From Nitrospira lenta (GTDB taxonomy: Bacteria > Nitrospirota > Nitrospiria > Nitrospirales > Nitrospiraceae): a stretch of 64,000 nt of DNA. The position numbers and the translations under genes were made by a program. Location: NCBI RefSeq assembly GCF_900403705.1, contig NZ_OUNR01000017.1, forward strand, positions 1 to 64,000, written 5' to 3'. Every line of letters begins with the position of its first letter. The first letter of the stretch is position 1. Under the pieces are notes generated by a model that saw only the letters and a program-made list of their open reading frames with translations, did no database searches and was not told the DNA's origin. Shown here piece by piece: positions 42,685-57,953 of the stretch.

Positions 42685-42772
42685 GCGATGCCTCCTTCAC
42701 AATTCCATGCTTGCGTAGACGGACGGCGGGCGATATTTCCTCACCCATACGAAAACACCATGTAGAGAAGAT

Positions 42773-43846: not shown

Positions 43847-44361
43847 TCATCTGCGTCGAGAGGACCGAGCACCTCACAACAGTGATCGAGCGCGCGCATC
43901 AGCAGCTTCTCAACCCCGCTCTCAGAAATGTCCATGCGCGAGGCAATTTCGCGATACGAATATCCGTATACACGGCACAGCAGAAAGGCTTCACGGGTTC
44001 GAGGCGGCAGGGATTCGATCGACTGCAGGAAGGTGCGGAACCGCCGTTTCCCGACCAGGACACGTTCCGGCGAGGGAGCATGAGACGGCACCTCCAGCGC
44101 CTCTTCCAACGACTCATAACTGTTGGGCCTGATCTTTTCCTTGCGCAAATGATCGATGGCCAGGTTGCTGGCAATCCGATGCAACAGCGCGCGTGGCTGC
44201 TCGACCCCCCGACCGTCGTCCAGCCGAAGCAGTCGTAGATAGGTTTCTTGCACAAGATCGGCGGCGGTGTCCCGGCAGCGTACCATGCTCACCAGACGGC
44301 GCATGAGCTCGTCGCGATACTGATGGAAGAACTCTGCGATCTGTGAATAGGTCAGCGTCAT
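43843..44361 (-). CDS. ECF sigma factor, FecI-type
   Basis: 172 residues with sigma region 2 (EFFHQYRDELMRRLVSMVRC, DLVQETYLRLLRLDD) and region 4 helix-turn-helix (LPPRTREAFLLCRVYGYSYREIASRMDISESGVEKLLMRAL). FecI-type sigmas drive siderophore receptor operons after FecR-mediated signalling. The ATG at 44361 is shared with the stop of a 25-codon upstream ORF (ATGA), and the gene sits downstream of leader element D and a Fur-like site. The order sigma-fecR-receptor-PepSY is the classical cell-surface-signalling operon. Confidence 0.94.
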   Translation of the reverse strand: MTLTYSQIAEFFHQYRDELMRRLVSMVRCRDTAADLVQETYLRLLRLDDGRGVEQPRALLHRIASNLAIDHLRKEKIRPNSYESLEEALEVPSHAPSPERVLVGKRRFRTFLQSIESLPPRTREAFLLCRVYGYSYREIASRMDISESGVEKLLMRALDHCCEVLGPLDADE

Positions 44362-44435
44362 ACGTAGACCATCTGTTCGAGGAAAAGGGAACCGGGCTTG
44401 CTTCGATGGACGGCCCGGCGTGCCTTCTCCTTCAT
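44358..44435 (-). CDS. Possible 25-residue leader ORF before the ECF sigma gene
   Basis: An ATG lies in the U-tract/tail of the leader-D hairpin (44433-44435) and opens a 25-codon frame (starts MKEKARRAV, ends LEQMVYV) whose TGA overlaps the sigma-factor ATG. No Shine-Dalgarno precedes it. Because its stop is fused to the next start, it could couple translation to readthrough of the terminator. It may also be chance; no homology can be tested here. Confidence 0.35.
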   Translation of the reverse strand: MKEKARRAVHRSKPGSLFLEQMVYV

Positions 44436-44494
44436 GAAAAAGCCCACGCGCATCGTGAGATGCGGTGGGCTCTGTTCTCGAAGACTCTGGCCTC
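44436..44494 (-). promoter_or_regulatory. Leader element D: GAGGCCAGAG box plus intrinsic terminator
   Basis: Read on the minus strand: GAGGCCAGAG (44494-44485), spacer UCUUCGAGAA, CAGAGCCCAC, then a hairpin 44471-44441 (AGCCCAC-GCGCATC against GATGCG-GTGGGCT) followed by a U-tract. Three similar copies occur at 46323-46381, 51681-51735 and 57804-57864. The hairpin plus U-run is an intrinsic terminator placed before the ECF sigma gene, so expression requires antitermination or escape. The ligand or factor is unknown. Confidence 0.75.
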
Positions 44495-44509
44495 AGTACA
44501 CGCGGACTA

Positions 44510-44563
44510 CATGATATTGAGAAATGGTCTCAGATAATGAAGGCGGAGCGGTGGTAAAGTCAA
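44510..44563 (-). promoter_or_regulatory. Probable promoter D with Fur-box-like operator
   Basis: On the minus strand TTGACT (44563-44558) lies 17-18 nt before a weak -10 (TCATTA/CATTAT, 44540-44534). An imperfect palindrome TGATATTGAGA/TCTCAGATAAT (44512-44522 and 44528-44538) overlaps the -10 and resembles a Fur box; its half-site ATTTCTCAATATCA nearly equals that in promoter B. It precedes leader D and the ECF sigma operon. Confidence 0.55.
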
Positions 44564-44582
44564 TGTCCATCTCAATCCCCTA

Positions 44583-44600
44583 TTACGGTCGGCACCGTAA
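44583..44600. other. Perfect 7-bp palindrome with CGGC loop
   Basis: TTACGGT-CGGC-ACCGTAA (44583-44600), upstream of promoter D and downstream of the small 48-residue gene. No U-tract follows in either direction. It may be the 3' hairpin of the bfd-type operon or an operator. The rest of 44601-44699 holds no gene that I can see. Confidence 0.35.
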
Positions 44601-44699
44601 GGATGAGGCGATTCATGATCCCGCCCCCACATCCACCGCAGATCGATCAACGAGCTGAGCCAGATCCAGACTCATACGTTCCGCAATCGGCACGCCTCC

Positions 44700-44846
44700 T
44701 TATGGAGACCACCAGGCCACCATCTCCGCTCCGCCGCCAGCAATCCAGAGGGCGGCCAGCGCGCCGACGATCATGCCGAACGCCACAGCCAGACTGACGA
44801 TCACGCCACGATCGTCATCCCCAGGCCCACTCGATCGCGGCGGCAT
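44700..44846 (-). CDS. 48-residue single-pass membrane protein
   Basis: A small ORF with one transmembrane helix (VIVSLAVAFGMIVGALAALWIAGG, about residues 15-38), preceded by a polar N-terminus (PPRSSGPGDDDRG) and followed by a short tail ending VAWWSP. A GGGAGAGAGG tract lies 8 nt upstream of its ATG, and the gene is only 23 nt past the stop of the zinc-ribbon ORF, so it looks like the last gene of the Bfd operon. Codon use and composition look coding. Function unknown. Confidence 0.6.
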   Translation of the reverse strand: MPPRSSGPGDDDRGVIVSLAVAFGMIVGALAALWIAGGGAEMVAWWSP

Positions 44847-44869
44847 ACGCAACAGCCTCTCTCCCTTCC

Positions 44870-45034
44870 TTAATCGGACGCGCCGCCTGACGCGGCCGCA
44901 CGGCTTCTTCCCCGGCCTTCATCGATCGACAACGCGCTTTCCGTAATGGCATACCCGCACTCGACACAGACCCAGAACGCCCCGTTCGAGTACAGACTCG
45001 CGCGATGGCAGCGTGGACATGACCGGCATTTCAT
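44870..45034 (-). CDS. Small zinc-ribbon protein
   Basis: About 54 residues with two CxxC knuckles: KCRSCPRCHR near the N-terminus and VCVECGYAI about 20 residues later, a rubredoxin/zinc-ribbon pattern. Start ATG 45034 is chosen to begin at the knuckle; the frame extends to 45052, where it would overlap the upstream gene by 4 nt. It has a basic, Ala/Gly-rich tail. Function unknown; probably DNA- or protein-binding. Part of the small-gene string behind bfd. Confidence 0.6.
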   Translation of the reverse strand: MKCRSCPRCHRASLYSNGAFWVCVECGYAITESALSIDEGRGRSRAAASGGASD

Positions 45035-45048
45035 GAATCGACTCCCAC

Positions 45049-45300
45049 TCAATGACAGACCTCCGTATGCGCACCCTGCCTGGCGGACGAGGCCAGTCCC
45101 GCCGGTTGCTGTGTTACGAGCCCCGCCAAGCGGCCGACCGTATCGGCAAAGGCGAGAAACTCTTCACGATTGAAATGCAGCGTGATCGGCCCGCAGGTCA
45201 CGTGCAGCCGTCCACATCCACACAGCACCAATTTCATCGGCCCATCAGCACGTAAGGTCTTTTCCATGTCAGCAATCTCCTTGTCGGTGAAAATACACAT
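45049..45300 (-). CDS. Conserved-looking small protein in the iron block, unknown function
   Basis: About 83 residues from ATG 45300 (TTG 45309 also possible). Core KLVLCGCGRLHVTCGPITLHFNREEFLAF has an alternating strand pattern with a CxC and HVTC, and a C-terminal helix (TVGRLAGLV). No recognised family. Located between the peroxiredoxin-like gene and the zinc-ribbon gene, and its end overlaps the latter's longest frame by 4 nt. Confidence 0.55.
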   Translation of the reverse strand: MCIFTDKEIADMEKTLRADGPMKLVLCGCGRLHVTCGPITLHFNREEFLAFADTVGRLAGLVTQQPAGLASSARQGAHTEVCH

Positions 45301-45327
45301 CCGCTTCAAGTCTCCGAGCCCTTCTCT

Positions 45328-45840
45328 CTACGCCAGGAGGCACGAGGCCCTGGCAGCCCATCCATCGACATCCTCGGCGCTGTCGGGGGTCGCCACCCGT
45401 TGCGATACCCCGATGAGCTCCTGCAGAACCGTCAGGTCATGCGCGATAAAGTCATGACTGACCCGCAGGCGCAGGACACCGGTGCGATCGATGACAAAGG
45501 TGTGGCACCGCTGAGCCGGCGCCGTCACGGCGACGCCGAAGAATCGATGCAGCCGTCCGCAGGGGTCCGCCAAGACCGGCGTGAGCGGTCGGTCCCCTGG
45601 CTCAATCCACAAGCGATGCAGCGGCCGGGCGCCGGACGCGACAATGAGGAGGGATGCGCCAAGGTCAGCAAATCGTCGGGCCTGGTCGTCGATTAACCCG
45701 GACGCCACATGTCCGGGATAAGGAAGGAAACACAACGCGACGACCTTGTTTGCGTAGCACGCGCCATGCAAATAGGTGAGGTGTCCGCCAACCAGCGCCG
45801 GTCCTTGAAAACCCAATGCCTGCATCCCATTTCGTTTCAT
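45328..45840 (-). CDS. Peroxiredoxin/thioredoxin-fold protein lacking the peroxidatic Cys
   Basis: 170 residues with an AhpC/TSA-like layout: NKVVALCFLPYPGHVASGLIDDQARRFADLGASLLIVASG aligned to the usual NKWVVLFFYPxDFTxxCPTE segment shows no Cys at the catalytic place (PGHVASG). The C-terminal half, with LADPCGRLHRFFGV and HTFVIDRTGVLRLR, matches the fold. AAGGAG lies 7 nt before the ATG. A non-catalytic redox-fold protein in an iron-uptake operon may be a binding or sensing protein; this is inference. An alternative is simple divergence from the AhpC family. Confidence 0.7.
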   Translation of the reverse strand: MKRNGMQALGFQGPALVGGHLTYLHGACYANKVVALCFLPYPGHVASGLIDDQARRFADLGASLLIVASGARPLHRLWIEPGDRPLTPVLADPCGRLHRFFGVAVTAPAQRCHTFVIDRTGVLRLRVSHDFIAHDLTVLQELIGVSQRVATPDSAEDVDGWAARASCLLA

Positions 45841-45865
45841 CGCCTGTCTCCTTTACGTGAATGAG

Positions 45866-46039
45866 TCACTTGTGCGCGACCTGGCGAGCCGAACCGCCGG
45901 GCGCCCCGAATAACGGCAGCGGATCACGGCAAGACCACCCACAATTGACACATTTCACTCCGGCCAGCGGCCCGTAGTAATCCAGTACCCGCTCAATGAC
46001 CAACAGCCCTCCGCACTTTTGACAAGGTCCTTTCATCAT
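45866..46039 (-). CDS. Small zinc-ribbon protein
   Basis: About 57 residues from ATG 46039 or 46036 (AAAGGA just upstream). CQKCGG near the N-terminus and CVNCGW about 25 residues later form two CxxC knuckles, with a bulky aromatic segment VLDYYGPLAG between them. A zinc-ribbon of unknown role. It lies between bfd and the peroxiredoxin-like gene on the same strand. Confidence 0.65.
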   Translation of the reverse strand: MMKGPCQKCGGLLVIERVLDYYGPLAGVKCVNCGWSCRDPLPLFGAPGGSARQVAHK

Positions 46040-46059
46040 TCGTCCTTTCGCTTCATCCG

Positions 46060-46260
46060 TTATGATTGCGTTCCCGCCGAAGACACCGCCGAACATCCCG
46101 CGATGCTCTGAATCAGGGTCTCCAAGTTTGCTTCACACCGACCGCAACACGCGTCATCCAGCCCCATCGCTTGCTTCATCGATTTCGGACAGGTTCCATG
46201 GCATGACGCCAGGGCACAAAACTCCGCTTCCCTGATTCCCTTACACAGACAAACATACAT
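46060..46260 (-). CDS. bfd: Bacterioferritin-associated ferredoxin-like (BFD) [2Fe-2S] protein
   Basis: 66 residues with the BFD-type cysteine pattern: YVCLCKGIREAEF at the N-terminus (CxC) and CCGRCEANL at about residues 38-46 (CxxC-like). BFD proteins transfer electrons to mobilise iron from bacterioferritin and are typically iron-starvation induced. The start ATG 46260 is preferred since GAGGAG lies 5 nt upstream; a GTG at 46266 is in frame. It is the first gene after leader B, so probably controlled by a Fur-like repressor and the attenuator. Confidence 0.85.
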   Translation of the reverse strand: MYVCLCKGIREAEFCALASCHGTCPKSMKQAMGLDDACCGRCEANLETLIQSIAGCSAVSSAGTQS

Positions 46261-46322
46261 AGACACTCCTCTCTGCCGAGCGGTCTCGGCCCTGAGCCCA
46301 GTTCCAACAACTGCGGCTCAAT

Positions 46323-46381
46323 AAAAAAGCCCAAAGCATCGTTCGATACTTTGGGCTCCGGTCTGCTCGACCTCTGGCCTC
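46323..46381 (-). promoter_or_regulatory. Leader element B: GAGGCCAGAG box plus intrinsic terminator
   Basis: Minus strand: GAGGCCAGAG (46381-46372), spacer GUCGAGCAGAC, CGGAGCCC, hairpin 46357-46328 (AGCCCAAAG-CAUCG... pairing through GUAUC/GAUGC arms) and a six-U run. Located between promoter B and bfd. Same architecture and spacing as the other three copies. Confidence 0.75.
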
Positions 46382-46408
46382 ACGCGCACTCATTTTTCTG
46401 CTACTTCA

Positions 46409-46453
46409 TATTTGATATGTATTCTCAATATCATTTAGATGGCGCACTGTCAA
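46409..46453 (-). promoter_or_regulatory. Promoter B with Fur-box-like operator
   Basis: Minus strand TTGACA (46453-46448), spacer 17 nt, -10 TATTGA (46430-46425). The 21-nt palindromic TGATATGTATTCTCAATATCA (46413-46433) overlaps the -10; its ends TGATAT and ATATCA are exact inverted repeats and it resembles Fur boxes. It precedes leader B by about 30 nt and would drive bfd and the small genes after it. Confidence 0.65.
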
Positions 46454-46487
46454 CCTCTTCGGTTACCTTTTAAGAACTATTTTTTAG

Positions 46488-47240
46488 TTAGGTTCGAATC
46501 CCGCTGACCAAGGTCAACACCATGGCCGTCAGGTACATGAGAGCGATGCCGCAGAAAATACCTGACGCCATCTGCATGCGGCGCGTGGCGGTATAGGCCA
46601 TGGCGGTGAGAGAAAGCACCACGTACAGCAGAGAGCCTGCCGCGAGGCTGTAGAAGCCGATTGAAAAATAAGAAGAGAGCCCTTGTCCGCTCAGCACGGT
46701 TCCCAGGCAGGTCGGCGCGCCGGCCAGAAACCCGAGCCACAGCACGTCTTTCCCACGCACAGGCGTCTTTCCCGCCGCACTGATAATGCCGAACCCTTCG
46801 GTGCCGTTGTGCAGCCCGAACCCGGCCACCAGCAACGCGCTGAGCACCCACGCCCCGCTTGCGTAGCTGGCGCCGATCGCCAGCCCTTCACCGAGATTGT
46901 GGAATCCCATTCCGATAGCAATCATATACGGCAGCGGCAACACCCGGCTTCCAGGCCCGTTCCCGAACAGCTGGCTCGACTCCAACGCCACTAGGCCGAT
47001 CAAGCTGATGCCGAGACTGCCCAGAAACACGACCCACGACAGCCCGTCACGCGCGCCCGTCAATTCAACGGCTTCATGCATCAGATCAAAAAAGAGATAC
47101 GTCAGCACTCCCGTCGCGATCCCGATCAGAAAGCTCTCCCAAGAGCGCGGCAGCACTTTTCCCAGTAACAGCGCCGCACCGATCCCGAGATACACCGGAA
47201 TGACGCCGGCCACGAGTCCTAATGCAATGAGATTTAGCAT
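46488..47240 (-). CDS. ZIP-family divalent metal transporter
   Basis: 250 residues with about eight transmembrane helices. TM4 contains the ZIP signature MGFHNLGEGLAIGASYASG (HNxxEGxAxG-like) and TM5 GFGLHNGTEGFGII with a second HN. These residues form the binuclear metal site. ZIP proteins import Zn2+, Fe2+ or Mn2+; position at the end of an iron-related run favours Fe2+, which is inference. The gene follows the 64-residue gene by about 110 nt on the same strand. Confidence 0.88.
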   Translation of the reverse strand: MLNLIALGLVAGVIPVYLGIGAALLLGKVLPRSWESFLIGIATGVLTYLFFDLMHEAVELTGARDGLSWVVFLGSLGISLIGLVALESSQLFGNGPGSRVLPLPYMIAIGMGFHNLGEGLAIGASYASGAWVLSALLVAGFGLHNGTEGFGIISAAGKTPVRGKDVLWLGFLAGAPTCLGTVLSGQGLSSYFSIGFYSLAAGSLLYVVLSLTAMAYTATRRMQMASGIFCGIALMYLTAMVLTLVSGIRT

Positions 47241-47350
47241 GATGGCGTTATACCAGAACTGCCGACGATGGCAACCCCTTCGCCTTCAATCGCTCACTGA
47301 ATCGCCTCTGTTCATGATGACCGATACCCACGAGTCCCCCTCCTGCCACA

Positions 47351-47545
47351 TCAACGAAGTGTTTTGTTCCAGCCAGAACGTATCACATACCACGCGATGA
47401 TTCCGCAAGGAAGGCCCAGCGCGAGCCAGGAAACCCCATCCCACACTCCATCGCCAAGGAGGGCCGAAAAAAGACCAATGCCACTGATCACCCCCAGCAA
47501 GGCCGGCATGCCCCACACTTGGCGGGCGGTCAGAGGGACATTCAT
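47351..47545 (-). CDS. 64-residue membrane protein downstream of PepSY gene
   Basis: Start ATG 47545 overlaps the stop of the PepSY gene (ATGA), indicating coupling. The product has two hydrophobic helices (WGMPALLGVISGIGLFSALLG; VSWLALGLPCGIIAWYVI). This arrangement (PepSY protein plus a tiny two-helix protein) recurs in siderophore operons, where such proteins are thought to assist ferrisiderophore reduction; that is a family-based suggestion and I cannot name the family with certainty. Confidence 0.7.
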   Translation of the reverse strand: MNVPLTARQVWGMPALLGVISGIGLFSALLGDGVWDGVSWLALGLPCGIIAWYVIRSGWNKTLR

Positions 47546-48729
47546 CTCACACCCGCCACAATCGACGGAACTCCCGACGAAGAGATCTGCCCCTCCGTCG
47601 TGACGGCGAATTGATCGGCCGACATGTTCCGCTTTTTCCACCAAAGATAGAGCCCGCTGCACAGCACCACAATCGTGATGACATCCAACACTGCCCATAC
47701 GGATTTTAGCGGCAGCCCCCCGTAGTCGCCGAAATGCAGAGGCTGAGAGACCGACAACGCCGTGATGTACCAGGGCATGGCCCGCACCGCGGCAACCTCT
47801 CCGGTTTCAGCATCGATCAGAACCGGCTCGATCAACCGCGCCGTCAATGGCGTCTTGCCGCGCATAAATATCGCATAGTGATGGGGACCGGCAAACGGGG
47901 TACCGGGAAAAGCCACAAAGGCGATCTCTTTCCCTGCATCCGTCGATTCCGCCGCCGCCACAGCCCGATTGAGAGAGCTAAAGGCCGTCATCCGCGGTTT
48001 GCCCTGCCAAGGCGCCGTCATCTCCGCCAATTCCGTCTGTTGCCAATAGGCGAACAGCGGCCGGGCCAGCGTATTGATCACGCCAGTTCCGCCGACGACG
48101 AGCGCCCAGACCACTGTGGCGATACCCAGGAGATTATGGAGATCGAGCCAGGTCAGACGACGGCTGCCCTCATGGCGGACGGTGCCGAACGGCAATTTTC
48201 GCATGAAGGGTCCATAGACGACGACGCCGGACAGCACGGAAAGGACGAACAGACAGCCCATACCGCCGAGAAACAACGTGCCCGGCAAGCCGGCAAACAG
48301 CTCGACGTGCAGCGCAAACATCACATGCATGAACCCTTGGCGCAACGGAGGCTCCAGCAGTAAGGCGCCGGTCCGGCCGTCATAGACGTAGACGGCAGAA
48401 TCCTCGTCGGCATCCGGGGTGTGCCCCATCGACAGAAACCAGACTGGCGCATCGTCATCCTGAGATAAAAACAGCACGGCGTCCTGAGGCCGGCGCATCC
48501 GGGCATCCGCCACCAGCCTATCGAGGTCGACACGTGGAAGGTCACCCGCCAGCGCCGGCGGCTCGACACTCGCCCCGCTCCACAGTCCGATCTCCTCTCC
48601 AAAGATCAACGGCAGACCGGTTACGCAGAGCAGCAGCAGAAATAGCGTGCAGACAAGGCTAGTCCACTTGTGGACGGCATACCACCGCTTCAGAGTCACG
48701 CCCGCCGGCATGTGCGGCGCGATCGTCAC
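47542..48729 (-). CDS. PepSY-associated transmembrane protein (iron-uptake type)
   Basis: 395 residues, with the same family features as the gene at 38875-40041: N-terminal KRWYAVHKWTSLVCTLFLLLLCVTGLPLIF, middle LFLGGMGCLFVLSVLSGVVVYGP, LDLHNLLGIATVVWALVVGGTG, C-terminal VLDVITIVVLCSGLYLWWKKR. A PepSY-like periplasmic part (VYVYDGRTGALLLEPPLRQG) lies between. Probably accessory to the upstream receptor: inner-membrane protein involved in iron release from siderophores. It follows a small lipoprotein gene (34 nt) in the same operon and overlaps the 64-residue gene. Confidence 0.88.
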   Translation of the reverse strand: MTIAPHMPAGVTLKRWYAVHKWTSLVCTLFLLLLCVTGLPLIFGEEIGLWSGASVEPPALAGDLPRVDLDRLVADARMRRPQDAVLFLSQDDDAPVWFLSMGHTPDADEDSAVYVYDGRTGALLLEPPLRQGFMHVMFALHVELFAGLPGTLFLGGMGCLFVLSVLSGVVVYGPFMRKLPFGTVRHEGSRRLTWLDLHNLLGIATVVWALVVGGTGVINTLARPLFAYWQQTELAEMTAPWQGKPRMTAFSSLNRAVAAAESTDAGKEIAFVAFPGTPFAGPHHYAIFMRGKTPLTARLIEPVLIDAETGEVAAVRAMPWYITALSVSQPLHFGDYGGLPLKSVWAVLDVITIVVLCSGLYLWWKKRNMSADQFAVTTEGQISSSGVPSIVAGVR

Positions 48730-48762
48730 TCCGGCCCTCTTGCCTGGACAAGCAGGAGCAGG

Positions 48763-49023
48763 CTACTGAGGAGCACGGGTATCTGCATGAGGATTCTGCG
48801 ATGGCGGCTGTTCAGCGTAGCGATATCCCTTCGACTGCATGCACCCGCTCAAGTTGATGCCTCCGGCCGGCGAGACTTTCGCATGCTCCTGCCCCAACAA
48901 TACTTCGCTCTTGCAGACCTCCCAATCCTCTCGGGATTGCGCGTCGGTTTTGGTGGCATGCACCCACCGGCCTTCGGCGCAAGCAGCCAGCACCAGGGGT
49001 ATCAGGAGAAGAAAGACCTTCAC
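48763..49023 (-). CDS. Small putative lipoprotein
   Basis: About 86 residues. Start GTG at 49023 gives a typical signal (KVFLLLIPLVLAACAEG) with lipobox Cys; a GAGG tract lies 7 nt upstream. A GTG at 49038 is an alternative start. The mature part has two Cys (VCKSEVLLG; NLSGCMQSKGYRY) that could form a disulfide. No family recognised. It lies between the receptor and the PepSY gene in the same operon. Confidence 0.6.
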   Translation of the reverse strand: MKVFLLLIPLVLAACAEGRWVHATKTDAQSREDWEVCKSEVLLGQEHAKVSPAGGINLSGCMQSKGYRYAEQPPSQNPHADTRAPQ

Positions 49024-49134
49024 GTCTGGGCCTCGCACATAATCACACCCCCTCTCTCTATAAAGGCGAATGAGACAGAGGCCTCCATCCCTGAAACAAC
49101 AAATCGCCTCTGCCTCGCCGTGAACGCCCGAACG

Positions 49135-51630
49135 TTAGAACCGCAGCCCCACCGTACCCAACACGGTTAACGGCTCTCCGTAGAAGAAGAACTGCGAACC
49201 GTTGTAGGAGGTGGCCACGTACCGCTGATCCAGCAGATTTTTGATATTCAGCGCCACATTAAAGCCTTTGGCTCCCAGCCAATTGCCCTGTTCGAGCGCA
49301 TGATTGTAATACAGCGCCGCATCAGCTCTGACATAGGCGGGCATATCAATCGGATTTCCGGATAGCGACGCCGTCCGGCTGCTGTACGCAAACAGTCCTC
49401 CGCCGACCCCGAATCCCTTCAGAGGGCCCTCTTGAAAATGATAGGTGGACCAGATCGTGAATTTATTGTACGGCACGTTGGGCAGGCGCCTATTGAGCAA
49501 TGCCGTATCGGTATCCTTCGTCACTTCGGCATCGGTGTAGGCATAGCCGGCGATGACGTTCCAGCCTGGCGTCATCTGTGCCGTCACATCCAATTCAATG
49601 CCCTGGCTGCGCTGCTCCCCTGTCTGCACCGAGAATCCCAATGCGCTGAGCGCGGGGTCCGGATTGGGCGTGACCAGATTCTCCCTGGTCAGGTGAAACC
49701 AGGCGAGTGTGGCCGAGAGACGATTATCCATGAGAAACGTCTTCATGCCGATTTCATATTGGGTCGATCGCTCCGGCTTGAATAAATCGCCGGTACCGTT
49801 GCCGTTACGGGTCGCCGGAGAACTTGGCTGAAACCCCTTCGTCCACGACGTATAGAGAGAGAGCGGCTCGATCGGCTGATAGACGAGCCCCAACCGGGGA
49901 CTGACCGCATGGTTGTCCGATGAATGACTTTCGAAGGCGGATTGTGTGGACTGGTGCACATAGTCAAACCGCAAACCGCCCATGAATTTAAGGCTCGGCA
50001 GGATCGTGATCTGGTCCTGCAGATAGAACGCCGCCGTCTTGTTGTCACCCTGAAACTGGCCTTGAAATACTCCACCGACAGCCGGCACAGGCAGCAGGGA
50101 ATAATTCGGCGCAAACAGGTCGAGCGTCGGCGCCAGATCTCCGGTGAACACGAACTGATCGGTTTTTTCCTGCCGAAACTCAACACCCGTCAGCAGGGTA
50201 TGGTCCATGTCAAACATGCGCAGATGCCCCACCACATTCGTCACCATCGAGTGGGCATGCCGGCGCGCCACCGCCGGCTGCAGCAACTGGGTTCGATTCA
50301 ACGTTCGTTGATCGGCATCCAGCGAGTCGGGAGTTACAAACAGAGTGTTGCGGTCGTCTTCCACAATCGAATGCCTGTAGACATTGCGGATTGACCATTG
50401 GTCGTTGAATTGATGCGTCAGATCGTACCCGATACGGTACGACGTACGATTGAGCGACCCATGATCGCCCAGCGTGACGGATCGATTGCGCGGAATGTTG
50501 CCGTTGATATTCCCCCACACGGTGCCTTGCGCCGGGAGCCCGTACGGATCGTTGCTCCATCGCCGCATGTAATCGGCGTCGACCGTCAGCGTCGTCCGTG
50601 TCCCCAACAACCACGTGACGCTCGGCGCGATCGCCGCCAAATCGCGGTTGGCAAAATCGATGAAACTGTTGGCTCGTTGACCGGCCACATTGAGGCGATA
50701 GAGCACGGTCTTGCTGGCATTGAGCGGACCGGTGGCGTCAAGTTCTGACCGGTAGAAATTGAAATTGCCGATCGTGGTATTGGCGGAATAGGCCGCGTCC
50801 GCCAACGGCTTGGTGGTCACCAGATTGATGACGCCGCCAGGATCGCCCTGTCCGTACAGCACCGCGGCAGGCCCCTTCAGCACTTCAATCCGCCGGATAT
50901 TGTAGGTGTCCGACGCGGTGAATTGCGCAAACGGATCGATCAATCCGTTGCGGAAATAGCTGCGGTCGGTGGCGGCGAATCCCCGGATGATAAGGTTCTC
51001 GTACAGTGACGCACTGGAGTCTGCGGCATTGATCCCGGATACGCTCTCCAGCGAATTTTGCAACCGGAACGTGCGTTGCTCTTCAATGACCTTGCGGGTG
51101 ATGACCTGAATCGACTGCGGCACGTCCTTGATCGGCGTGTCGGTTCGCGTCGCGACACTGGACTCTTCCGCCACATACGTCTTGGCGTCATCACGCTCAC
51201 GAACTTCTTTGACCACAATCTCCGGCACTTTCACCGGCTTCTGTTTCACGGGAGATATCGATACCCCGGGAGCCTCCGCTTGGGCCGCAAGCGCCGCCGG
51301 GGCCGGCGCCTTCTGAAGCGTGACGGTCCTAGTATCCGTAAAGACGTACTCCAGCCCCGTCCCCTCCAGCACTTGCCGCACGCCTTCCTCCGGCGACATC
51401 GTACCGACCACTCCTTTTGTCAGACGGCTTCCCGCAAGCTCCGAAGCGTAGAGCACTTGCACATTCGCCTGTTCAGCCAATGCCGCCAATGCGCTCGCAA
51501 GCTCCTGCGGAGGAATATTCAGCGACACCTGGTCGCTTTGCGCAACGGCCGGCAACGCCAATCCCATCGCGATCAGGGCCACCCCCACGATCAATCTCAC
51601 ACGGACTCCGATTTCCCGCCAGCTCATCAT
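49135..51630 (-). CDS. TonB-dependent siderophore receptor with STN domain
   Basis: 831 residues; ATG 51630 with AAAGGA 6 nt upstream. Signal peptide (LIVGVALIAMGLALPAVAQ), STN domain (LNIPPQELASALAALAEQANV to about residue 115), linker with KPVKVPEIVVKEV (putative TonB box, same as in the other STN receptor), plug (SIQVITRKVIEEQRTFRLQNSLESVSG; GPAAVLYGQGDPGGVINLV) and barrel ending TVLGTVGLRF with terminal Phe. Ligand unknown; the class transports ferric siderophores. No sigma/FecR pair is adjacent to it, so its STN domain may signal to one of the two pairs in trans. Confidence 0.94.
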   Translation of the reverse strand: MMSWREIGVRVRLIVGVALIAMGLALPAVAQSDQVSLNIPPQELASALAALAEQANVQVLYASELAGSRLTKGVVGTMSPEEGVRQVLEGTGLEYVFTDTRTVTLQKAPAPAALAAQAEAPGVSISPVKQKPVKVPEIVVKEVRERDDAKTYVAEESSVATRTDTPIKDVPQSIQVITRKVIEEQRTFRLQNSLESVSGINAADSSASLYENLIIRGFAATDRSYFRNGLIDPFAQFTASDTYNIRRIEVLKGPAAVLYGQGDPGGVINLVTTKPLADAAYSANTTIGNFNFYRSELDATGPLNASKTVLYRLNVAGQRANSFIDFANRDLAAIAPSVTWLLGTRTTLTVDADYMRRWSNDPYGLPAQGTVWGNINGNIPRNRSVTLGDHGSLNRTSYRIGYDLTHQFNDQWSIRNVYRHSIVEDDRNTLFVTPDSLDADQRTLNRTQLLQPAVARRHAHSMVTNVVGHLRMFDMDHTLLTGVEFRQEKTDQFVFTGDLAPTLDLFAPNYSLLPVPAVGGVFQGQFQGDNKTAAFYLQDQITILPSLKFMGGLRFDYVHQSTQSAFESHSSDNHAVSPRLGLVYQPIEPLSLYTSWTKGFQPSSPATRNGNGTGDLFKPERSTQYEIGMKTFLMDNRLSATLAWFHLTRENLVTPNPDPALSALGFSVQTGEQRSQGIELDVTAQMTPGWNVIAGYAYTDAEVTKDTDTALLNRRLPNVPYNKFTIWSTYHFQEGPLKGFGVGGGLFAYSSRTASLSGNPIDMPAYVRADAALYYNHALEQGNWLGAKGFNVALNIKNLLDQRYVATSYNGSQFFFYGEPLTVLGTVGLRF

Positions 51631-51680
51631 GACGCGTCCTTTCTTACTCAGTGGGTCGTCTCTCTCTCCAATAAACGGCA

Positions 51681-51735
51681 GAGCCCATGACTGCCTGTGC
51701 AGTCATGGGCTCTGGACTCACGTTCCGTTGGCCTC
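51681..51735 (-). promoter_or_regulatory. Leader element C: GAGGCCA box plus hairpin without clear U-tract
   Basis: Minus strand: GAGGCCAACG (51735-51726), spacer, GUGAGUCCAGAGCCC, then a perfect 14-bp stem (51712-51681: GAGCCCATGACTGC and GCAGTCATGGGCTC) with a 4-nt loop. After the stem comes UGCCGUUUAUU in place of a U-run, so termination may be weak. No good promoter or Fur palindrome is evident for this copy. It lies about 50 nt before the receptor start. Confidence 0.65.
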
Positions 51736-51749
51736 GTTATAATTGACGA

Positions 51750-51940
51750 TTACTGTGGAGGAAGAAATTGTCCGGTCATACCTCTAGTTCGGGGCGTCAT
51801 GCGGAAAGCCACACCTGGCCGAATGGTGGCGAAGCCTCCGCACCGCGCGCACTCGATGACGAGACTGCCGCTGCTTCCGACGGGCAATCACTCTCCCGCA
51901 ATGACAACACACATCCGCCAACGATGCCGACAGAACCTGC
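51750..51940 (-). pseudogene. Frameshifted copy of the Com-like zinc-finger gene
   Basis: On the minus strand, frame 1 reads DVCCHCGRVIARRKQ and, after about position 51870, the +1-shifted frame reads GSLVIECARCGGFATIRPG; joined, these match the intact protein at 52446-52634 (CHCGKLIARWQGTNLVIKCARCARFMTIQ). One extra base near 51868-51872 breaks the frame. No start codon is clear. Its 3' end reaches 51750, close to leader C. It could instead be decoded by frameshifting, but decay is simpler. The nearby 51941-52445 shows nothing I can support as a gene. Confidence 0.55.
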
Positions 51941-52445
51941 AGCGCGCCTTCCCCGGACTCCGTCGAACTCTTTCCGTCCACAGGCCATGAGACGCATGGG
52001 CAAATAGAAACCTGACGTGCGGTTGTAGAAAAACCGAGTGGCTTGCGTGGCCAACGGTTTCCGATTTCCCTTACTCCGCCGCTCACAGTCGATGACAGGA
52101 TCTGCCCATCGTGCATCCGCTCCATTCCAGTCCAGCCACATTCGTGCGAGCGACGTTTCAATTCTACTCGCGCCGCCTCAGCACGATTCCACGGCATGCA
52201 CTACCCGGTACTGCAGCTGCGGGACCTCCGGCCCTTCGAGCGCGAGATGCCGCGCGTCTGGTCGGCGAGGCAAGTTTGGTTAGACGGATTTTTTTCGATG
52301 AGGATGAACGTCGGCTGGATCAGCTTCGCAGACTAGATGGATTCACACTGTAGAGCGCGAGCACTCCTTGCCGACCATGGAAATGTCGGCTCCTGCTCGT
52401 ACGCTGCCGGGCAATCCGTACGGGCGCTTGCCCAGCCGATAGAAC

Positions 52446-52634
52446 TTACTCCCGCCGGCCTAATGCCAGATCAGGCGGCGGGGTGCCACGGATGGCCGAA
52501 TACTGGATCGTCATGAAGCGGGCACAGCGGGCGCACTTGATGACGAGGTTGGTGCCTTGCCAGCGGGCAATCAATTTCCCACAATGACACCGAACATCCG
52601 ACGAAGACGGTACCGGCGTATGCAACTCACTCAT
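52446..52634 (-). CDS. Com-like (Mu Com family) small zinc-finger protein
   Basis: About 62 residues from ATG 52634 (52640 in frame, 52715 longest). DVRCHCGKLIARW and CARCARF form two CxC/CxxC knuckles, with the LVIKCARC pattern typical of Mu Com-type zinc-finger proteins, which bind mRNA or DNA to regulate translation. The assignment is by pattern. AGGGG lies 7 nt before the chosen ATG. It stands between the receptor operon and the TonB operon, both on the minus strand, and a decayed copy lies at 51750-51940. Confidence 0.6.
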   Translation of the reverse strand: MSELHTPVPSSSDVRCHCGKLIARWQGTNLVIKCARCARFMTIQYSAIRGTPPPDLALGRRE

Positions 52635-52766
52635 TCCCATGCCCCTGTACTCCCAGGTGTCTTGCTGAACTGATGTCCGCATGTCTGTTGATGCATATCC
52701 GTCCCATAGGCGCACACGCGCGCCTCATTCTGAGGCCAACTCGCAGAGCACTCGATACCGAGCAGG

Positions 52767-53225
52767 CTATTTGAAGGTCAACTTTTTGATTTCACCCGCC
52801 GGCAATTCAACTTCGCCGAAATCGGACTGCCCCTTGAAGCTGCCGGCGATAGCCAGCACGAACTCCCCCGTCTTGCCATCGTTGAGCGTGATCGTGACGC
52901 TCGGAGGCGCACTGCTTCCCGAGGGCTTGAGGTCGATCTGTTTGATTCCTTCGAACTTGATCTTGACGGTTGCCGTCCCGCGCTTGACCGGCACCTCTTT
53001 CAATTCATGCGGAACAAAGGCCGTTTCACTAATTTTTTCTTCCCAATAGAAAATGACGTTCTTGACGTCCGTCTCTACGCCCTTGATATCGGTGGCGACG
53101 GCGTGAAAGCCCTTCTCAGCCTTGCTCTCCGCCCACGCCGGGCTGCCCATCAGACAGAGCAGCATCAGGCCGCACACCAAGTGGAACCGTTGACTGGTCA
53201 CTCGCACGATCGTCTGGCGATTCAT
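52767..53225 (-). CDS. Exported protein of unknown function, TonB-operon end
   Basis: About 152 residues; start ATG 53225 with AAGGAG 7 nt upstream. A signal peptide (LVCGLMLLCLMGSPAWAES) precedes a beta-rich domain with ATVKIKFEGIKQIDL, SVTITLNDGKTGEFVLAIAG and GEVELPAGEIKKLTF. No recognised family; composition suggests a single beta-sandwich. It follows the tonB gene by 23 nt, so it is the last member of the exbB-exbD-tonB operon. A periplasmic accessory role for iron uptake is conceivable but unsupported by motif. Confidence 0.7.
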   Translation of the reverse strand: MNRQTIVRVTSQRFHLVCGLMLLCLMGSPAWAESKAEKGFHAVATDIKGVETDVKNVIFYWEEKISETAFVPHELKEVPVKRGTATVKIKFEGIKQIDLKPSGSSAPPSVTITLNDGKTGEFVLAIAGSFKGQSDFGEVELPAGEIKKLTFK

Positions 53226-53248
53226 ACGCATTCTCCTTCTTATTGTCA

Positions 53249-54175
53249 TTACCCATCTAATCGATAACTGATCGGGACAAGAATCGTGAGCTGAGACTTG
53301 CCCAATGGATGCTTGAGCGTCAACGGCGACGCCTTTTTCATCACCGCCATCGCTTCTTGATCCAAAACCGCGCGACCCGAGCTCTCTGCAATGCTGACTC
53401 CGATCACCTCGCCGTCATCGCGAATGACGGCTTCCACCACCACCTTGCCTTCCCAATGATTCATTTTCGCCTGCGCCGGATACCGCTTCAGCTCTTCCAT
53501 CCGGCGCTGCACCGATTCGCTGAGCCAGCCATAGTCGGCGTGAACCTCCCGATGCCGAACCAGGCGCTGTTGCACCACTCGGTGCTCAATCGCCGACGCC
53601 GTCGTTTCGACGGTCGGTGATTCTCGCTCCACGGTTTGAGGCGCAGCCTCGATCGGCGTCAGCGTTTCCGCCGGCTGCGCGCGCGCGACCCTCGCAGCGA
53701 CCGCGACCTGTGAGGTCCGCTGCTCGACAACCGGCTCCTGACTCGTAGCGACGGCCTGCGATTCGATGCGCTGCGCCATCGGGCGCTCGATCGACGCCTC
53801 AGCCTGCGTTACCATCTCAGGAGTCTCCTGCTGGACAGACTCCACGGCTTCAACCGTCCGAGTGACTTCACGAACCGTCTGCTGAACCGGCACGGGAGGC
53901 GTCACGAGCGGCTGAGGCTCCACCACCCGCTTGACCGGTTGAGGATCCGGAGGAACCCTGGCCGGTTCTAACGGTGCCGGAGAAGCGGGAGGGGGAGCCT
54001 CGACCACGGCCACCTCCCATTGAAACGGCGTCGGTAAAACCGGCTTGTCGATTTCAGCCATCACGAGTACCGCGCACCCAACGCCCAGCGCGTGACACAC
54101 CAGCGACACCATCCAGCCATGCGCGCGCGCAGGTCCTGGGCCATCGACTAACCGATTGAGCTCGACCGCTGTCAT
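53249..54175 (-). CDS. tonB: TonB energy-transducer protein
   Basis: 308 residues. N-terminal signal-anchor (WMVSLVCHALGVGCAVLVMAE) with the SxxxH-like pattern, a long Pro/Glu/Val-rich linker (about residues 55-220) that spans the periplasm, and a C-terminal domain with YGWLSESVQRRMEELKRYPAQAKMNHWEGKVVVEAVIRDDGEV and the ending SQLTILVPISYRL. Transduces the proton-motive force through ExbB/ExbD to TonB-dependent receptors. ATG 54175 overlaps the exbD stop (ATGA). A second tonB occurs at 56738-57787. Confidence 0.93.
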   Translation of the reverse strand: MTAVELNRLVDGPGPARAHGWMVSLVCHALGVGCAVLVMAEIDKPVLPTPFQWEVAVVEAPPPASPAPLEPARVPPDPQPVKRVVEPQPLVTPPVPVQQTVREVTRTVEAVESVQQETPEMVTQAEASIERPMAQRIESQAVATSQEPVVEQRTSQVAVAARVARAQPAETLTPIEAAPQTVERESPTVETTASAIEHRVVQQRLVRHREVHADYGWLSESVQRRMEELKRYPAQAKMNHWEGKVVVEAVIRDDGEVIGVSIAESSGRAVLDQEAMAVMKKASPLTLKHPLGKSQLTILVPISYRLDG

Positions 54176-54546
54176 GACCGCACCACCTCAAGACTCACCT
54201 GCTTGAACCCGAGCCCTCGGACTTCGTCCACCACACCGACGAACCGCTCTAAAATAGTGACCCGGTCGGCCCGCACCACTACAAGCGACTCCCGCGGATG
54301 AGACGTGAGACTTGCGGTCAACCCATCCGCGACAACCGGTTGATCGTTCAAAAACAGCTGCCCCTCGGCCGTCAGCGTAATGACCAAGGGAACGTCCTTA
54401 TGCTCGCTCGCCGCCTTCGCTTTCGCCAATTCCACGGGAACCTGGCCGGTGGAGATGAACGTCGCCGTGGTCAACACAATCACCAGCAACACTAGCATCA
54501 CATCCACAAGCGGAATGACGTTGATTTGATTGAGCTCACGATCCAT
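54172..54546 (-). CDS. exbD: ExbD-type biopolymer transport protein
   Basis: 124 residues: short cytoplasmic start ELNQINVIPLVDVMLVLLVIVLTTATF with the essential membrane Asp (VDVMLVLLVI), then a periplasmic domain with GQLFLNDQPV and VVRADRVTILERFVGVVDEV. Partner of ExbB in energising TonB. It overlaps exbB by 11 nt upstream and tonB by 4 nt downstream, so the three are co-translated. The TolR/ExbD distinction is by context. Confidence 0.92.
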   Translation of the reverse strand: MDRELNQINVIPLVDVMLVLLVIVLTTATFISTGQVPVELAKAKAASEHKDVPLVITLTAEGQLFLNDQPVVADGLTASLTSHPRESLVVVRADRVTILERFVGVVDEVRGLGFKQVSLEVVRS

Positions 54547-54961
54547 GCTGCACCTTATACAGTGTCAGCAACTCCGACACCCGACGCCGCAACACGTTAT
54601 TCAGAACGACGCAGGGAATCGCCACGAGCAATCCAACCGCGGTCGCTTTGAGCGCCAGACTGAGACCGACCATGATGGCGCCGACCGCCATGGTGCCGGA
54701 CGTGCCCATCGTATGAAACGTGAGCATGATGCCCATCACAGTCCCCAGCAATCCGATATAGGGCGCGTTGGCCGCCACTGTCCCGATAACGACGAGTCGC
54801 TTCGTCAGCGCCATTTCCATCGTTTGAATGTCGTCGAATTGAGTCGGCGACACGCGACGATAGTACAGCCATCGCTCGACGGCGACGGCCAGGGCCCACA
54901 GACTAAGAGCTATAAGCAATCCGATAATTCCAAAATCCACCAAGTGCTTGAGCGCATCCAC
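54536..54961 (-). CDS. exbB: ExbB/TolQ-family proton-channel subunit
   Basis: About 141 residues. Start GTG at 54961 with GAGGAG 7 nt upstream; the frame opens with TTG at 54976. Three transmembrane helices: N-terminal FGIIGLLIALSLWALAVAVERW, and two in NAPYIGLLGTVMGIMLTFHTMG and GLSLALKATAVGLLVAIPCVVLNNVL, the family signature. Shorter than E. coli ExbB (about 244), but within the small MotA/TolQ/ExbB class. Forms the motor with ExbD for TonB. Confidence 0.9.
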   Translation of the reverse strand: MDALKHLVDFGIIGLLIALSLWALAVAVERWLYYRRVSPTQFDDIQTMEMALTKRLVVIGTVAANAPYIGLLGTVMGIMLTFHTMGTSGTMAVGAIMVGLSLALKATAVGLLVAIPCVVLNNVLRRRVSELLTLYKVQHGS

Positions 54962-55045
54962 GTCCGGTCTCCTCAAGTGAAGATAAACAACGACCCTGCC
55001 GCCTCAGCCGCCTCACAATAGAAGACGAATGAATCCGACGAAACC

Positions 55046-56092
55046 TCACTGCTTTTCTGAAATGCCACGCTTTTCTTCCAGGACAACGACCTCTCCATTG
55101 ACATGGGAGACGACAATCGGGGCCGCCCGTTCCAGCGCATTGAGCAATCCCGCCCGGTCATCGGCCCCAAAGACCCCACTGACCCTCAGTGCACCGATTC
55201 GCGGATCAAGAATCCTGATCTCTCCCCGTTGATAGCGGCCCACCTCCTGAATCACTTCAGACAATGGACGATCCTCGAACATAACCTTTCCTTCAAGCCA
55301 CGCCGTCGCTTCGGCTAGCGATACCGTTTTCACCGGCGATATCGCACCCGACGGCTCATAGGCAATTTGCTCGCCGGCCGTGAGTCGCTGCCACAATGGC
55401 TCTGACGCCGCCGGTTCGGATTGCTGCACCTCGACGGCCCCCTCTACCACGGTCACCATGACACGCTGCTCCAACCGTCGGACCACAAACTGCGTACCGA
55501 TATCCCGAACAACTCTGTTCCCTGCCACCACCTCAAACGGTCCCCCGCCCGAGTGCGATACGGCAAATAAGGCTTCCCCCTCCTGCAGCACGACAGTCCG
55601 CTTGGAACGGGAGAACGCCGTGGCAATCACCGTGCTCGTATTTAACGTGACGGCGGATCCGTCAGGAAGCACCACGATCCGCCGCTCACCCTTGGCGGTG
55701 CGATACTCCGCTGTTGCCACGCCGGACGTGAACCACCATCCACCCGCGATGACAACCGCCAACAACAGCGCACACACGGCCGAGAGCCTGGCTGGACGGT
55801 ACGACCACATTGAAACGGTGCGAGGGCGTTGCGCGGCACACTCCCATTCGCGCGCCGCGCGTACGAGCTCTTCGCGTAACAGCGGCCGGGTCGAGTCCAG
55901 TTCGCCCCACAAGCGACAACACCGGTCGAACTCCCGTCGATGCATCGGATCGGCATCAACCCACGCGTGCCACGCCCGCCGATCAGCATACGTGGCGCCC
56001 CCGGACTGAAGCCGCACAAACCATTCAAGCGCCTGCTCGGCAATCGATGCAGCATCGTGAGGTTCCGCCTGCTCTCCGACTATCTGACTCAT
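55046..56092 (-). CDS. FecR-family anti-sigma/regulator
   Basis: 348 residues. N-terminal DUF4880-like segment (QALEWFVRLQSGGATYADRRAWHAW; ADPMHRREFDRCCRLWGELD), one transmembrane helix (LSAVCALLLAVVIAGGWWF), the FecR domain (RTAKGERRIVVLPDGSAVTLNT; GEALFAVSHSGGGPFEV) and a C-terminal domain with VMFEDRPLSEVIQEVGRYQRGEI. It partners the ECF sigma encoded about 104 nt upstream. Paralogue of the FecR at 42773-43846. Normally it relays receptor occupancy to the sigma factor. Confidence 0.91.
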   Translation of the reverse strand: MSQIVGEQAEPHDAASIAEQALEWFVRLQSGGATYADRRAWHAWVDADPMHRREFDRCCRLWGELDSTRPLLREELVRAAREWECAAQRPRTVSMWSYRPARLSAVCALLLAVVIAGGWWFTSGVATAEYRTAKGERRIVVLPDGSAVTLNTSTVIATAFSRSKRTVVLQEGEALFAVSHSGGGPFEVVAGNRVVRDIGTQFVVRRLEQRVMVTVVEGAVEVQQSEPAASEPLWQRLTAGEQIAYEPSGAISPVKTVSLAEATAWLEGKVMFEDRPLSEVIQEVGRYQRGEIRILDPRIGALRVSGVFGADDRAGLLNALERAAPIVVSHVNGEVVVLEEKRGISEKQ

Positions 56093-56196
56093 GCAACAAC
56101 CTGCGATCCAGACCGATTCACCTCACTACCCATGCCCCATAAGACGCAACACCTTGCGCCAACCTGACTCAGCTCCTCGATTTTTCAATCAGGCCC

Positions 56197-56745
56197 CTAC
56201 GAACGATCCGCCCGTGAAACTCCTCCATCGAGTTCAACCCGGCGGCGACAATGCGCCATCGCCTTCATCACATGTTTTTCCACCATGTTTTTGGAGATAC
56301 CGAGACGACCGGCGATATCCGCATGGGAAAGCTCCAAGAACTTGTGCAACAGAAACACTTGCCGGCACTTTGGCGGAAGCTCCGCGATGGCCGCATGCAG
56401 GAGCTGCACGCGCTCCTTAGCCTCGACCGCATCGTCCGGACGGGTCGCCAGGGATGGAAGTTCCTCGGCTGTCTCTAGTTGCGTGATCCGTTCCGCTCGA
56501 ATCCGTTGCCGCCGAAACAGATCGATGGAGAGATTCACCGCCGTCTTGTAGAGAAAGGCCCTTGGCTGTGCAACCTCGGCCAGATCTTTCAACCCGCGCA
56601 CCCGGAGAAAGGTATCCTGCACCACATCTGCGGCCTGTTCGCGGCATCCCAGCTTGGCCGTGAGGAAACGCAGCAATTCACCGTAGTACTGCTGAAAGAG
56701 CGACGCTTCGAGTGTCACGCGTTGATCGTGCATGGTGCTATTCAA
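56197..56745 (-). CDS. ECF sigma factor, FecI-type
   Basis: 182 residues: region 2 (LFQQYYGELLRFLTAKLGC; ADVVQDTFLRVRGLKDL) and region 4 (LPPKCRQVFLLHKFLELSHADIAGRLGISKNMVEKHVMKAM) as in FecI/PvdS-like sigmas. Its start overlaps the end of the upstream tonB gene by 8 nt, which is an unusual coupling: tonB first, then sigma, FecR, ExbB, ExbD, TonB. The target promoters are unknown; one of the STN receptors is the likely sensor. Confidence 0.93.
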   Translation of the reverse strand: MNSTMHDQRVTLEASLFQQYYGELLRFLTAKLGCREQAADVVQDTFLRVRGLKDLAEVAQPRAFLYKTAVNLSIDLFRRQRIRAERITQLETAEELPSLATRPDDAVEAKERVQLLHAAIAELPPKCRQVFLLHKFLELSHADIAGRLGISKNMVEKHVMKAMAHCRRRVELDGGVSRADRS

Positions 56746-57787
56746 GTTGATAGTTCAAGGGCACCAACATGACGACGGAGGTTTCCCCCAACACATGGTC
56801 AAGTCTCAGCGGAGAAGCCGCCGCCAACGCCGCTAACGCCGCTTGATCGAGGATGGGATAGCCGGAGCTTTCTTCGATCACGGGATCGAGCAGCCGACCG
56901 TCACCCTGTACATGAATCTGTACGACGACTCGACCTTGGGCGTGAGCGGCCTTGGCCGATGCGGGATAGACCTTCACCCTCTCCAGCCTTGTTCGCAGTT
57001 CCTCCATGAGCCACCCATAGTCCGGAAAAGCCGTTCGGGTGACCGTGGATCTCGTCACAGCCTGCGGGCGCTGCAGCACATTCGGCCGCTCCAGCTGCGT
57101 CTCCACTTCAAGACTGCTCGATTCACGCTGGCTCTCGACCTGAGGGGGCGGAAGCAGAGCGGTAGCCGGATTCGCCACCGCCATGGCCGCCGCCGGCACG
57201 GTATCTTCCGCAGACAAGGCGGAGCGACCCGACACGGCCGGCCGGCGAGGCGGACGCGGGCTGGGAGCAACTTCAGATGAGAGTGACTCTGGAACCCGCG
57301 AGTCCTCCGAGTGATCGGATGACTCTGAAACATCCGGCGACGGCCGCGCATCGGCAGCAGGCTGAAGATCAGGCGCTGCCAGCGCCGACACCTCTTGGGG
57401 CTGGAGACTCTGAGCCGCCATCAATTCATTCGTGGGGGCGGCCATCAACGAAACGTCCCACCGAAACGGAGCCTTCTGTGGTATCGCGGAGATCTGCGCG
57501 GTGTGAAGATTGACGACAGCGGCTACGGCCAATAGGCAGCCATGGACGAGCGCTGAAATGCTCCATCCCAAAAGCGCCGTCTGCTCGGAGTCATCCCCAT
57601 CGCCCCGCAGCATCGGTGGCAAAATCAATCTGCCTGCGGCAGATCCGACCGAGGTCTGCCCGCAAGGATCAGCGAGTGGAGCAGATCGATACGGCTGATG
57701 CTGGGGGAGCCGTATCCCCACGCTACGCCGCTCCCAGCCCTGCTTCGCCGGAATCGAGAGCTGAGCATTTCTGAAAAAACTATTCAC
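56738..57787 (-). CDS. tonB: TonB energy-transducer protein (second copy)
   Basis: About 349 residues starting with GTG at 57787, where GGAG lies 5 nt upstream; the frame opens further up (57835) inside the terminator hairpin, so that longer start is unlikely. An ATG at 57613 would be an alternative. A long N-terminal cytoplasmic part precedes the membrane anchor (LLGWSISALVHGCLLAVAAVVNL), followed by a Ser/Pro-rich linker and C-terminal domain with YPASAKAAHAQGRVVVQIHVQGDG and the ending VVMLVPLNYQL. First gene after leader A. The first tonB lies five genes downstream. Confidence 0.88.
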   Translation of the reverse strand: MNSFFRNAQLSIPAKQGWERRSVGIRLPQHQPYRSAPLADPCGQTSVGSAAGRLILPPMLRGDGDDSEQTALLGWSISALVHGCLLAVAAVVNLHTAQISAIPQKAPFRWDVSLMAAPTNELMAAQSLQPQEVSALAAPDLQPAADARPSPDVSESSDHSEDSRVPESLSSEVAPSPRPPRRPAVSGRSALSAEDTVPAAAMAVANPATALLPPPQVESQRESSSLEVETQLERPNVLQRPQAVTRSTVTRTAFPDYGWLMEELRTRLERVKVYPASAKAAHAQGRVVVQIHVQGDGRLLDPVIEESSGYPILDQAALAALAAASPLRLDHVLGETSVVMLVPLNYQLE

Positions 57788-57803
57788 GTCGGCTCCGCAG
57801 AAA

Positions 57804-57864
57804 TAAAAAGCCCATGGCCGCCTGCTGGCGACCATGGGCTCTGGACTCGAAGTACTCTGGCCTC
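57804..57864 (-). promoter_or_regulatory. Leader element A: GAGGCCAGAG box plus intrinsic terminator
   Basis: Minus strand: GAGGCCAGAG (57864-57855), spacer UACUUCGAGUC, CAGAGCCC, then hairpin 57840-57809 (AGCCCATGG-CGCC against GGCG-CCATGGGCT) and a U-run. The boxes GAGGCCAGAG and GAGUCCAGAG are near-direct repeats here. It lies before tonB/ECF/FecR. The best copy of the four. Confidence 0.78.
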
Positions 57865-57906
57865 TTGCCGATTGCCTATGTTACGAGTGGCACCGGCTAA
57901 TTATCT

Positions 57907-57953
57907 GAATTTGATAATTAATATCAATACACGCCCGCTCGCCCCCCTGTCAA
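57907..57953 (-). promoter_or_regulatory. Promoter A with Fur-box-like operator
   Basis: Minus strand TTGACA (57953-57948), 18-nt spacer, TATTGA (57929-57924). The palindrome TTGATAATTAATATCAA (57911-57927) overlaps the -10, with TTGATA and TATCAA as exact inverted repeats. A Fur-like repressor bound here would block the -10. The gap to leader A (57865-57906) is AT-rich. Confidence 0.68.

Follow-up and report, generated by a model that had tools for sequence, protein, structure and literature searches.

The window analyzed here, a stretch of 64,000 nucleotides (nt) from Nitrospira lenta (contig NZ_OUNR01000017.1, positions 1 to 64,000), raises the question of why four iron-uptake operons are preceded by one and the same leader, and of what reads that leader. 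The reading that we favor, with a probability of roughly 0.7, is that the leader is a protein-dependent RNA switch of iron-acquisition genes that would be read by a Com-like protein; the RNA switch itself is well supported by sequence comparison. The window leaders have the form GAGGCC(A), a stem and (R)GAGCCC, followed by a terminator-type hairpin. All four copies lie on the minus strand where the initial annotation had placed them, and the span of 28-29 nt, counted from the opening G of box 1 through the final C of box 2 and described there as fixed, was seen in every one. Element A (57802..57864; sensor 57837-57864, terminator hairpin 57807-57842) is located 5' of a TonB-like gene, element B (51675..51735; sensor 51708-51735, hairpin 51679-51714) 5' of a gene for a TonB-dependent receptor, element C (46321..46381; sensor 46354-46381, terminator hairpin 46326-46359) 5' of a Bfd-like gene, and element D (44434..44494; sensor 44468-44494, then a terminator hairpin) 5' of genes for an extracytoplasmic function (ECF) sigma factor, FecR and a receptor; these gene calls had been made correctly. 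The exact pattern GAGGCCARAG-N8-18-SNGAGCCC had three matches in the window and none in 100 shuffles, and a looser two-box pattern recovered all four copies. A covariance model trained on 36 sequences, the four window copies included, found these copies against the whole genome with E = 4.7e-15 to 1.4e-10. The three U-tracts that had been reported behind the four hairpins are present, and the exception, element B (the copy at 51735), has no immediate U-tract and carries GGGCUCUGCCGUUUAUU in its place. A G+C-rich hairpin followed by a U-run, the criterion of an intrinsic terminator or attenuator, was therefore observed in three of the four window copies, and it was also observed in most relatives.

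The sensor is about 28 nt long and consists of two GAG/CC-rich boxes flanking a short variable stem, P2. The initial annotation was right about the four leaders and missed this covarying stem between the boxes as well as three more copies on another contig (C1:418612, C1:422998 and C1:423319), which bring the number in the genome to seven. P2 sequences vary (GGUC/GACC, GGAC/GUCC, GUUC/GAAC, GCAC/GUGC, GAGC/GCUC and more) while their pairing is kept, with 3.34 of 4 consecutive pairs formed versus 2.36 +/- 0.08 when the 3' ends were shuffled among the 96 distinct stems, a difference of 12 standard deviations that serves as a guide and not as a strict probability because the sequences are related. 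Of 118 copies, 71 have CCNGAG in each of the two boxes. The earlier view that the copies represent a structured RNA, and not just a shared terminator, is supported by the P2 covariation and by the two outputs of the one sensor described below. Two other readings of the leader were set aside: a kink-turn was not adopted for the internal loop, where tandem G.A is possible but the bulged side has two loop nt only and an extra purine stands opposite, and a leader-peptide attenuator was dropped since the aligned leaders have no conserved start codon or open reading frame.

In most copies a terminator follows the sensor, and box 2 doubles as the 5' arm of that terminator, so that sensor and terminator would be mutually exclusive if the outer stem forms. 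When leaders of the terminator copies were forced into the sensor fold, they were 8.8 kcal/mol less stable on average, suggesting that the default state is OFF. Other copies, including C1:423319, have no terminator. In one Nitrospira copy of this kind, box 2 pairs with the gene start instead (fold z = -3.8). Protein searches recovered orthologs of an outer-membrane gene, and six of them have the element without a terminator. In all six, box 2, AGUCCAGAGCC, is complementary to codons 2-5 (GGCUCUGGAY), and the Shine-Dalgarno sequence falls inside the enclosed stretch. A diverged seventh copy shows a compensatory change, with GAGUC in box 2 and GACUC downstream of the AUG. The same arrangement was found in a second gene family, porins encoded behind com-like genes, where GAGUCCCGAG stands against CUCGGG(A/G)CUC. 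In the first (outer-membrane) start-codon family, moreover, conservation of GAGCCC does not extend to its final C in most copies, as expected if this C serves the terminator and not the sensor. One sensor coupled to two outputs argues for a cis-regulatory RNA and not for a shared terminator; by its architecture the element is a regulatory sensor with two expression platforms, and at genes other than those behind terminators, translation appears to be under the control of this sensor.

Some leaders without a terminator have features of their own. The outer-membrane-gene leader in genome G016 (L215, 1060-1165) has several tandem CCAGAG units together with a compensatory change in the start-codon pairing. 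In three loci (L219, L220 and L221, each at 1501-1527; the own copy C1:423319 and genomes G022 and G025) the sensor lies between a com-like gene and an AraC-type gene, with an AUG or a GUG in the loop of P2; the AUG is in frame with the AraC gene in two of these genomes, and the sensor may thus overlap the start codon. When these AraC-leader copies were folded, box 2 had no clear inhibitory partner. A fluoride riboswitch (Rfam RF01734) is located at 730-800 on the plus strand of L214, about 700 nt upstream of an outer-membrane gene leader.

Relatives searched by pattern yielded dozens of true copies. At E <= 0.01, 137 of 396 Nitrospirota genomes gave a match to the covariance model, as many as eight in a single genome, and the strongest matches came from the same family as the source; covariance searches also placed the element in a few deltaproteobacterial lineages. 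Similar elements were found to precede related iron genes in many genomes. A specific DNA pattern, applied to 84,980 species, matched Nitrospira and its relatives, among them the complete genome of Nitrospira moscoviensis, and three deltaproteobacterial metagenome-assembled genomes (MAGs). Among its weak matches in deltaproteobacterial genomes, model R1 picked up ordinary GC-rich terminators without the boxes at most of the loci L188-L201 and L204-L209; these were discarded. The statement that the leader belongs to no known family has held: Rfam gave no match at the element in the window or at the loci of 13 relatives, and no relative of the element at curated or lax thresholds. Neither the element nor a cellular Com regulon was described in the open-licence papers searched. 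The element is a real regulatory RNA that has apparently not been described before. Note that two contigs labelled "uncultured Nitrosospira" (L099 and L101, isolates CMX and NOB2) carry the element and look like Nitrospira, and these labels may be wrong. In other families of the order, variant GAGGNCC...GAGUCCC sites stand in tandem downstream of a com-like gene (L257, L264, L265, L272-L277); these are probably a divergent version of the element that is mostly missed by models R1 and R2.

The genes behind the elements in relatives are mostly linked to iron, comprising ExbB/ExbD/TonB, Bfd-like, ECF/FecR/receptor and AraC regulator genes, the last with export genes. Genes for a nonribosomal peptide synthetase, a FecA-like receptor with DUF4198 and PepSY, cupredoxin, heme-binding proteins, porins and a CbiX-like protein were also found downstream, as were HD-domain and cytochrome genes. 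Fur-box-like sites (>=13/19 matches, <=150 nt upstream) were detected at 46% of copies, whereas random stretches taken from these loci had them in 1.8% of cases. Two of them are in the window on the minus strand, at 57913..57931 upstream of element A and at 46414..46432 upstream of element C, each with 14/19 matches. Fur-like boxes with 15-17/19 matches are also located just upstream of many com-like genes.

The com-like genes encode the candidate reader of the sensor. Small proteins near the elements share the pattern RC.CG.L(V/I)A(R/K)....G(I/V)E(I/L)KC(K/R)RC(K/R)R, and the window has one intact gene for such a zinc-ribbon protein, the proposed trans-acting partner, at 52446..52640 on the minus strand (64 amino acids from the ATG at 52640; longest reading 52446-52715). 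The fetched loci contain 54 distinct com-like genes; downstream of 30 of them a sensor-like site follows within 260 nt, at a median distance of 41 nt, compared with 13.7% for control stretches. The order com-like gene, element, target was observed in Nitrospirota as well as in the deltaproteobacterial MAGs. A Com-like protein was found in 23 of 24 carriers, compared with 8 of 36 genomes without a model match (Fisher p = 7e-9, an optimistic value given that the genomes are related and that the protein profile was built from element-adjacent proteins); most of these eight genomes have variant sites beside the com-like gene. In hhalign, the family aligned to Mu Com and five phage relatives with a probability of 96% over 37 columns, covering the whole zinc finger. 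A phage-Com profile matched 15 of 15 cellular members with E-values, computed for a tiny database, of 2.8e-9 to 1.7e-4, and PHROG 6417, "translational regulator", was matched at 3.5e-6. A second com-like sequence, at 51784..51925 on the minus strand, lies directly upstream of element B, about 520 nt downstream of the intact gene; com is readable there in two different frames, owing either to decay of the copy or to an error in the sequence. In the relative G022, the com-like gene located 57 nt before the element that matches B is open.

Com of phage Mu activates the translation of mom: it binds the mRNA and opens up a neighboring inhibitory structure (PMC6483171). Systematic evolution of ligands by exponential enrichment (SELEX) with a Com zinc finger selected two GAG(N)2CC motifs, placed in loops that flank a variable stem of 3-4 bp, the recognized form being CC(N)2-3GAG (PMC6483171), and the plan of our element, GAG-G-CC-A-GAG, variable stem and CC-R-GAG-CC, resembles that of these ligands. 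In mom and in the element alike, the 5' strand of the inhibitory hairpin is immediately preceded by a GAG (PMC6483171). Both systems further share a small four-cysteine zinc-finger protein (PF10122 for Mu), a gene for it directly upstream of the target, CC/GAG RNA beside an inhibitory hairpin, and a proposed activation. Unlike the Mu pair, however, the Com-like proteins are chromosomal, are linked to Fur boxes and iron uptake and have several targets per genome, most of which carry a transcription terminator and not a translation-blocking hairpin. A Com-like protein is strongly suggested as the partner that reads the element.

Besides the optimism of the co-occurrence value, several observations weigh against this assignment. 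The spacing between CC and GAG is one nt in the element versus two or three in the Com SELEX ligands and, because of this difference, the match is a resemblance and not proof. Box 1 has C in place of the A of GAG in 22 of 118 copies. The outer pairing GGC:GCC is almost invariant, its outermost pair is broken in some copies, and we only infer that this outer stem is part of the sensor because it never showed covariation. On the protein side, the best score against the Pfam Com family (PF10122) was 15.2 bits versus a cut-off of 22.9, with 4 of 15 members matching, weakly, and the Com-like proteins carry CxC, not CxxC. Com-like proteins are also present in 7 of 16 Nitrospirota genomes without a model match, where variant sites were recognized only afterwards, and the carrier G413 gave no Com-like match. 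Finally, no clear Fur box was found upstream of elements B and D.

If a Com-like protein reads the leader, control could proceed as follows. Box 2 would either stay in the sensor or pair with the 3' arm of the terminator, in most copies, or with early codons of the target, in the others, and without a helper the downstream pairing would win and expression would be OFF. Under iron-replete conditions, Fur would repress the promoters and the com-like genes, and transcripts that had been started would end at the terminator or have their start codon hidden. Under iron-poor conditions, relief from Fur would allow the Com-like protein to accumulate, bind the sensor and keep box 2 from inhibitory pairing; antitermination or translation would then be ON, and the TonB, receptor, Bfd and sigma genes would be expressed. 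Low iron would therefore act twice, through Fur on promoters and through the Com-like protein on leaders.

A metabolite or metal riboswitch, whose sensor would bind Fe2+, heme, citrate or a siderophore directly with the com-like genes as frequent members of its regulon, is possible but less likely. The conserved internal-loop sequence, the covarying stem, the two expression platforms and the iron regulon are typical of riboswitches, and dual-platform riboswitches (e.g., cobalamin, fluoride) likewise combine one conserved sensor, two kinds of output and a coherent regulon. Unlike those, however, the element has a very small core of about 14 conserved nt in a 28-nt hairpin, no Rfam match and an adjacent protein gene; this gene adjoins the element in several lineages and is present in almost every carrier, which a metabolite sensor would not require, and the motif resembles selected Com targets. 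The leader had been called an attenuator or riboswitch-type element. The attenuator stands, although with an apparent translational output in addition, and a riboswitch with an unknown ligand is less supported than a protein partner, in view of the adjacent Com-like gene.

It is improbable that another RNA-binding protein, of the BglG/LicT type, the ANTAR type or some other, reads the leader and that the Com-like protein is a passenger. LicT-type antiterminator hairpins are short and overlap the 5' arm of a terminator, and the element resembles BglG/LicT ribonucleic antiterminator hairpins in its size, its internal loop, this overlap and the logic of a protein-stabilized antiterminator. However, it precedes different genes, and the CAT_RBD domain was absent in 16 of 16 carriers, with positive controls, whereupon a BglG/LicT partner was dropped. 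An ANTAR partner was dropped as well, ANTAR proteins being absent in 6 of 16 carriers, and P2 loops are not conserved, unlike ANTAR hairpin loops. Partners of these two types are excluded for at least some of the carriers. Least credible is the absence of any regulation, with a conserved terminator or promoter-proximal short RNA copied around iron operons: the hairpins do look like ordinary intrinsic terminators, but the boxes and P2 pairing are conserved while the terminator arms diverge, and the sensor also occurs without a terminator, paired to the start codon.

The genes behind the window elements are all on the minus strand. The TonB-like gene behind element A (56738..57787) is followed at 53249..56745 by genes for ECF sigma (56197-56745), FecR (55046-56092), ExbB, ExbD and TonB. 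The TonB-dependent receptor behind element B is encoded at 49135..51630. Element C precedes the gene for the Bfd-like [2Fe-2S] protein (46060..46260), which matched Bfd 4E6K in phmmer with E = 0.01 and had no Pfam match. Behind element D, the stretch 40087..44361 contains genes for ECF sigma (43843-44361), FecR (42773-43846) and a TonB-dependent receptor (40087-42684). Two further small cysteine-rich families, C.KCGG...CVNCGW and VLCDCG.L....G..T.HF.RDEF, adjoin elements (window 45866-46039, minus strand; L036, L038, L045, L047), both without a Pfam match above the cut-off. The leaders of the tonB type have an extra hairpin with a variable loop immediately 5' of box 1 (e.g., window 57866-57900; L039, L044, L049). 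Those of the ECF type have a distinct upstream palindrome, TGAGA...TCTCAATATCA (44495-44570, upstream of element D; L048, L069, L094, L168, L173), possibly another operator or a Fur-box variant.

The system is best filed, on present comparisons, as com-mom type control that operates in chromosomal iron regulons and also reaches transcription termination. We consider it fairly probable that a chromosomal Com regulon exists, in which Fur-controlled Com-like proteins would activate iron genes in Nitrospirota and some deltaproteobacteria via a shared leader RNA, by preventing termination or start-codon sequestration, with the metal site possibly acting as a sensor. To our knowledge, com-mom logic has no earlier cellular use and no Com-type transcription antiterminator is known; if true, the finding would be the first of both. 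It would extend a phage mechanism to chromosomal regulons, where a compact activator-RNA pair may serve termination and translation, and it connects the orphan RNA element with a protein family that is specific, small and testable, and for which a cultured carrier, Nitrospira moscoviensis, is available. Nitrospira are major nitrite oxidizers and include the comammox bacteria, and their iron regulation is little studied; for these bacteria, the leader would name a layer of iron control that acts after transcription initiation.

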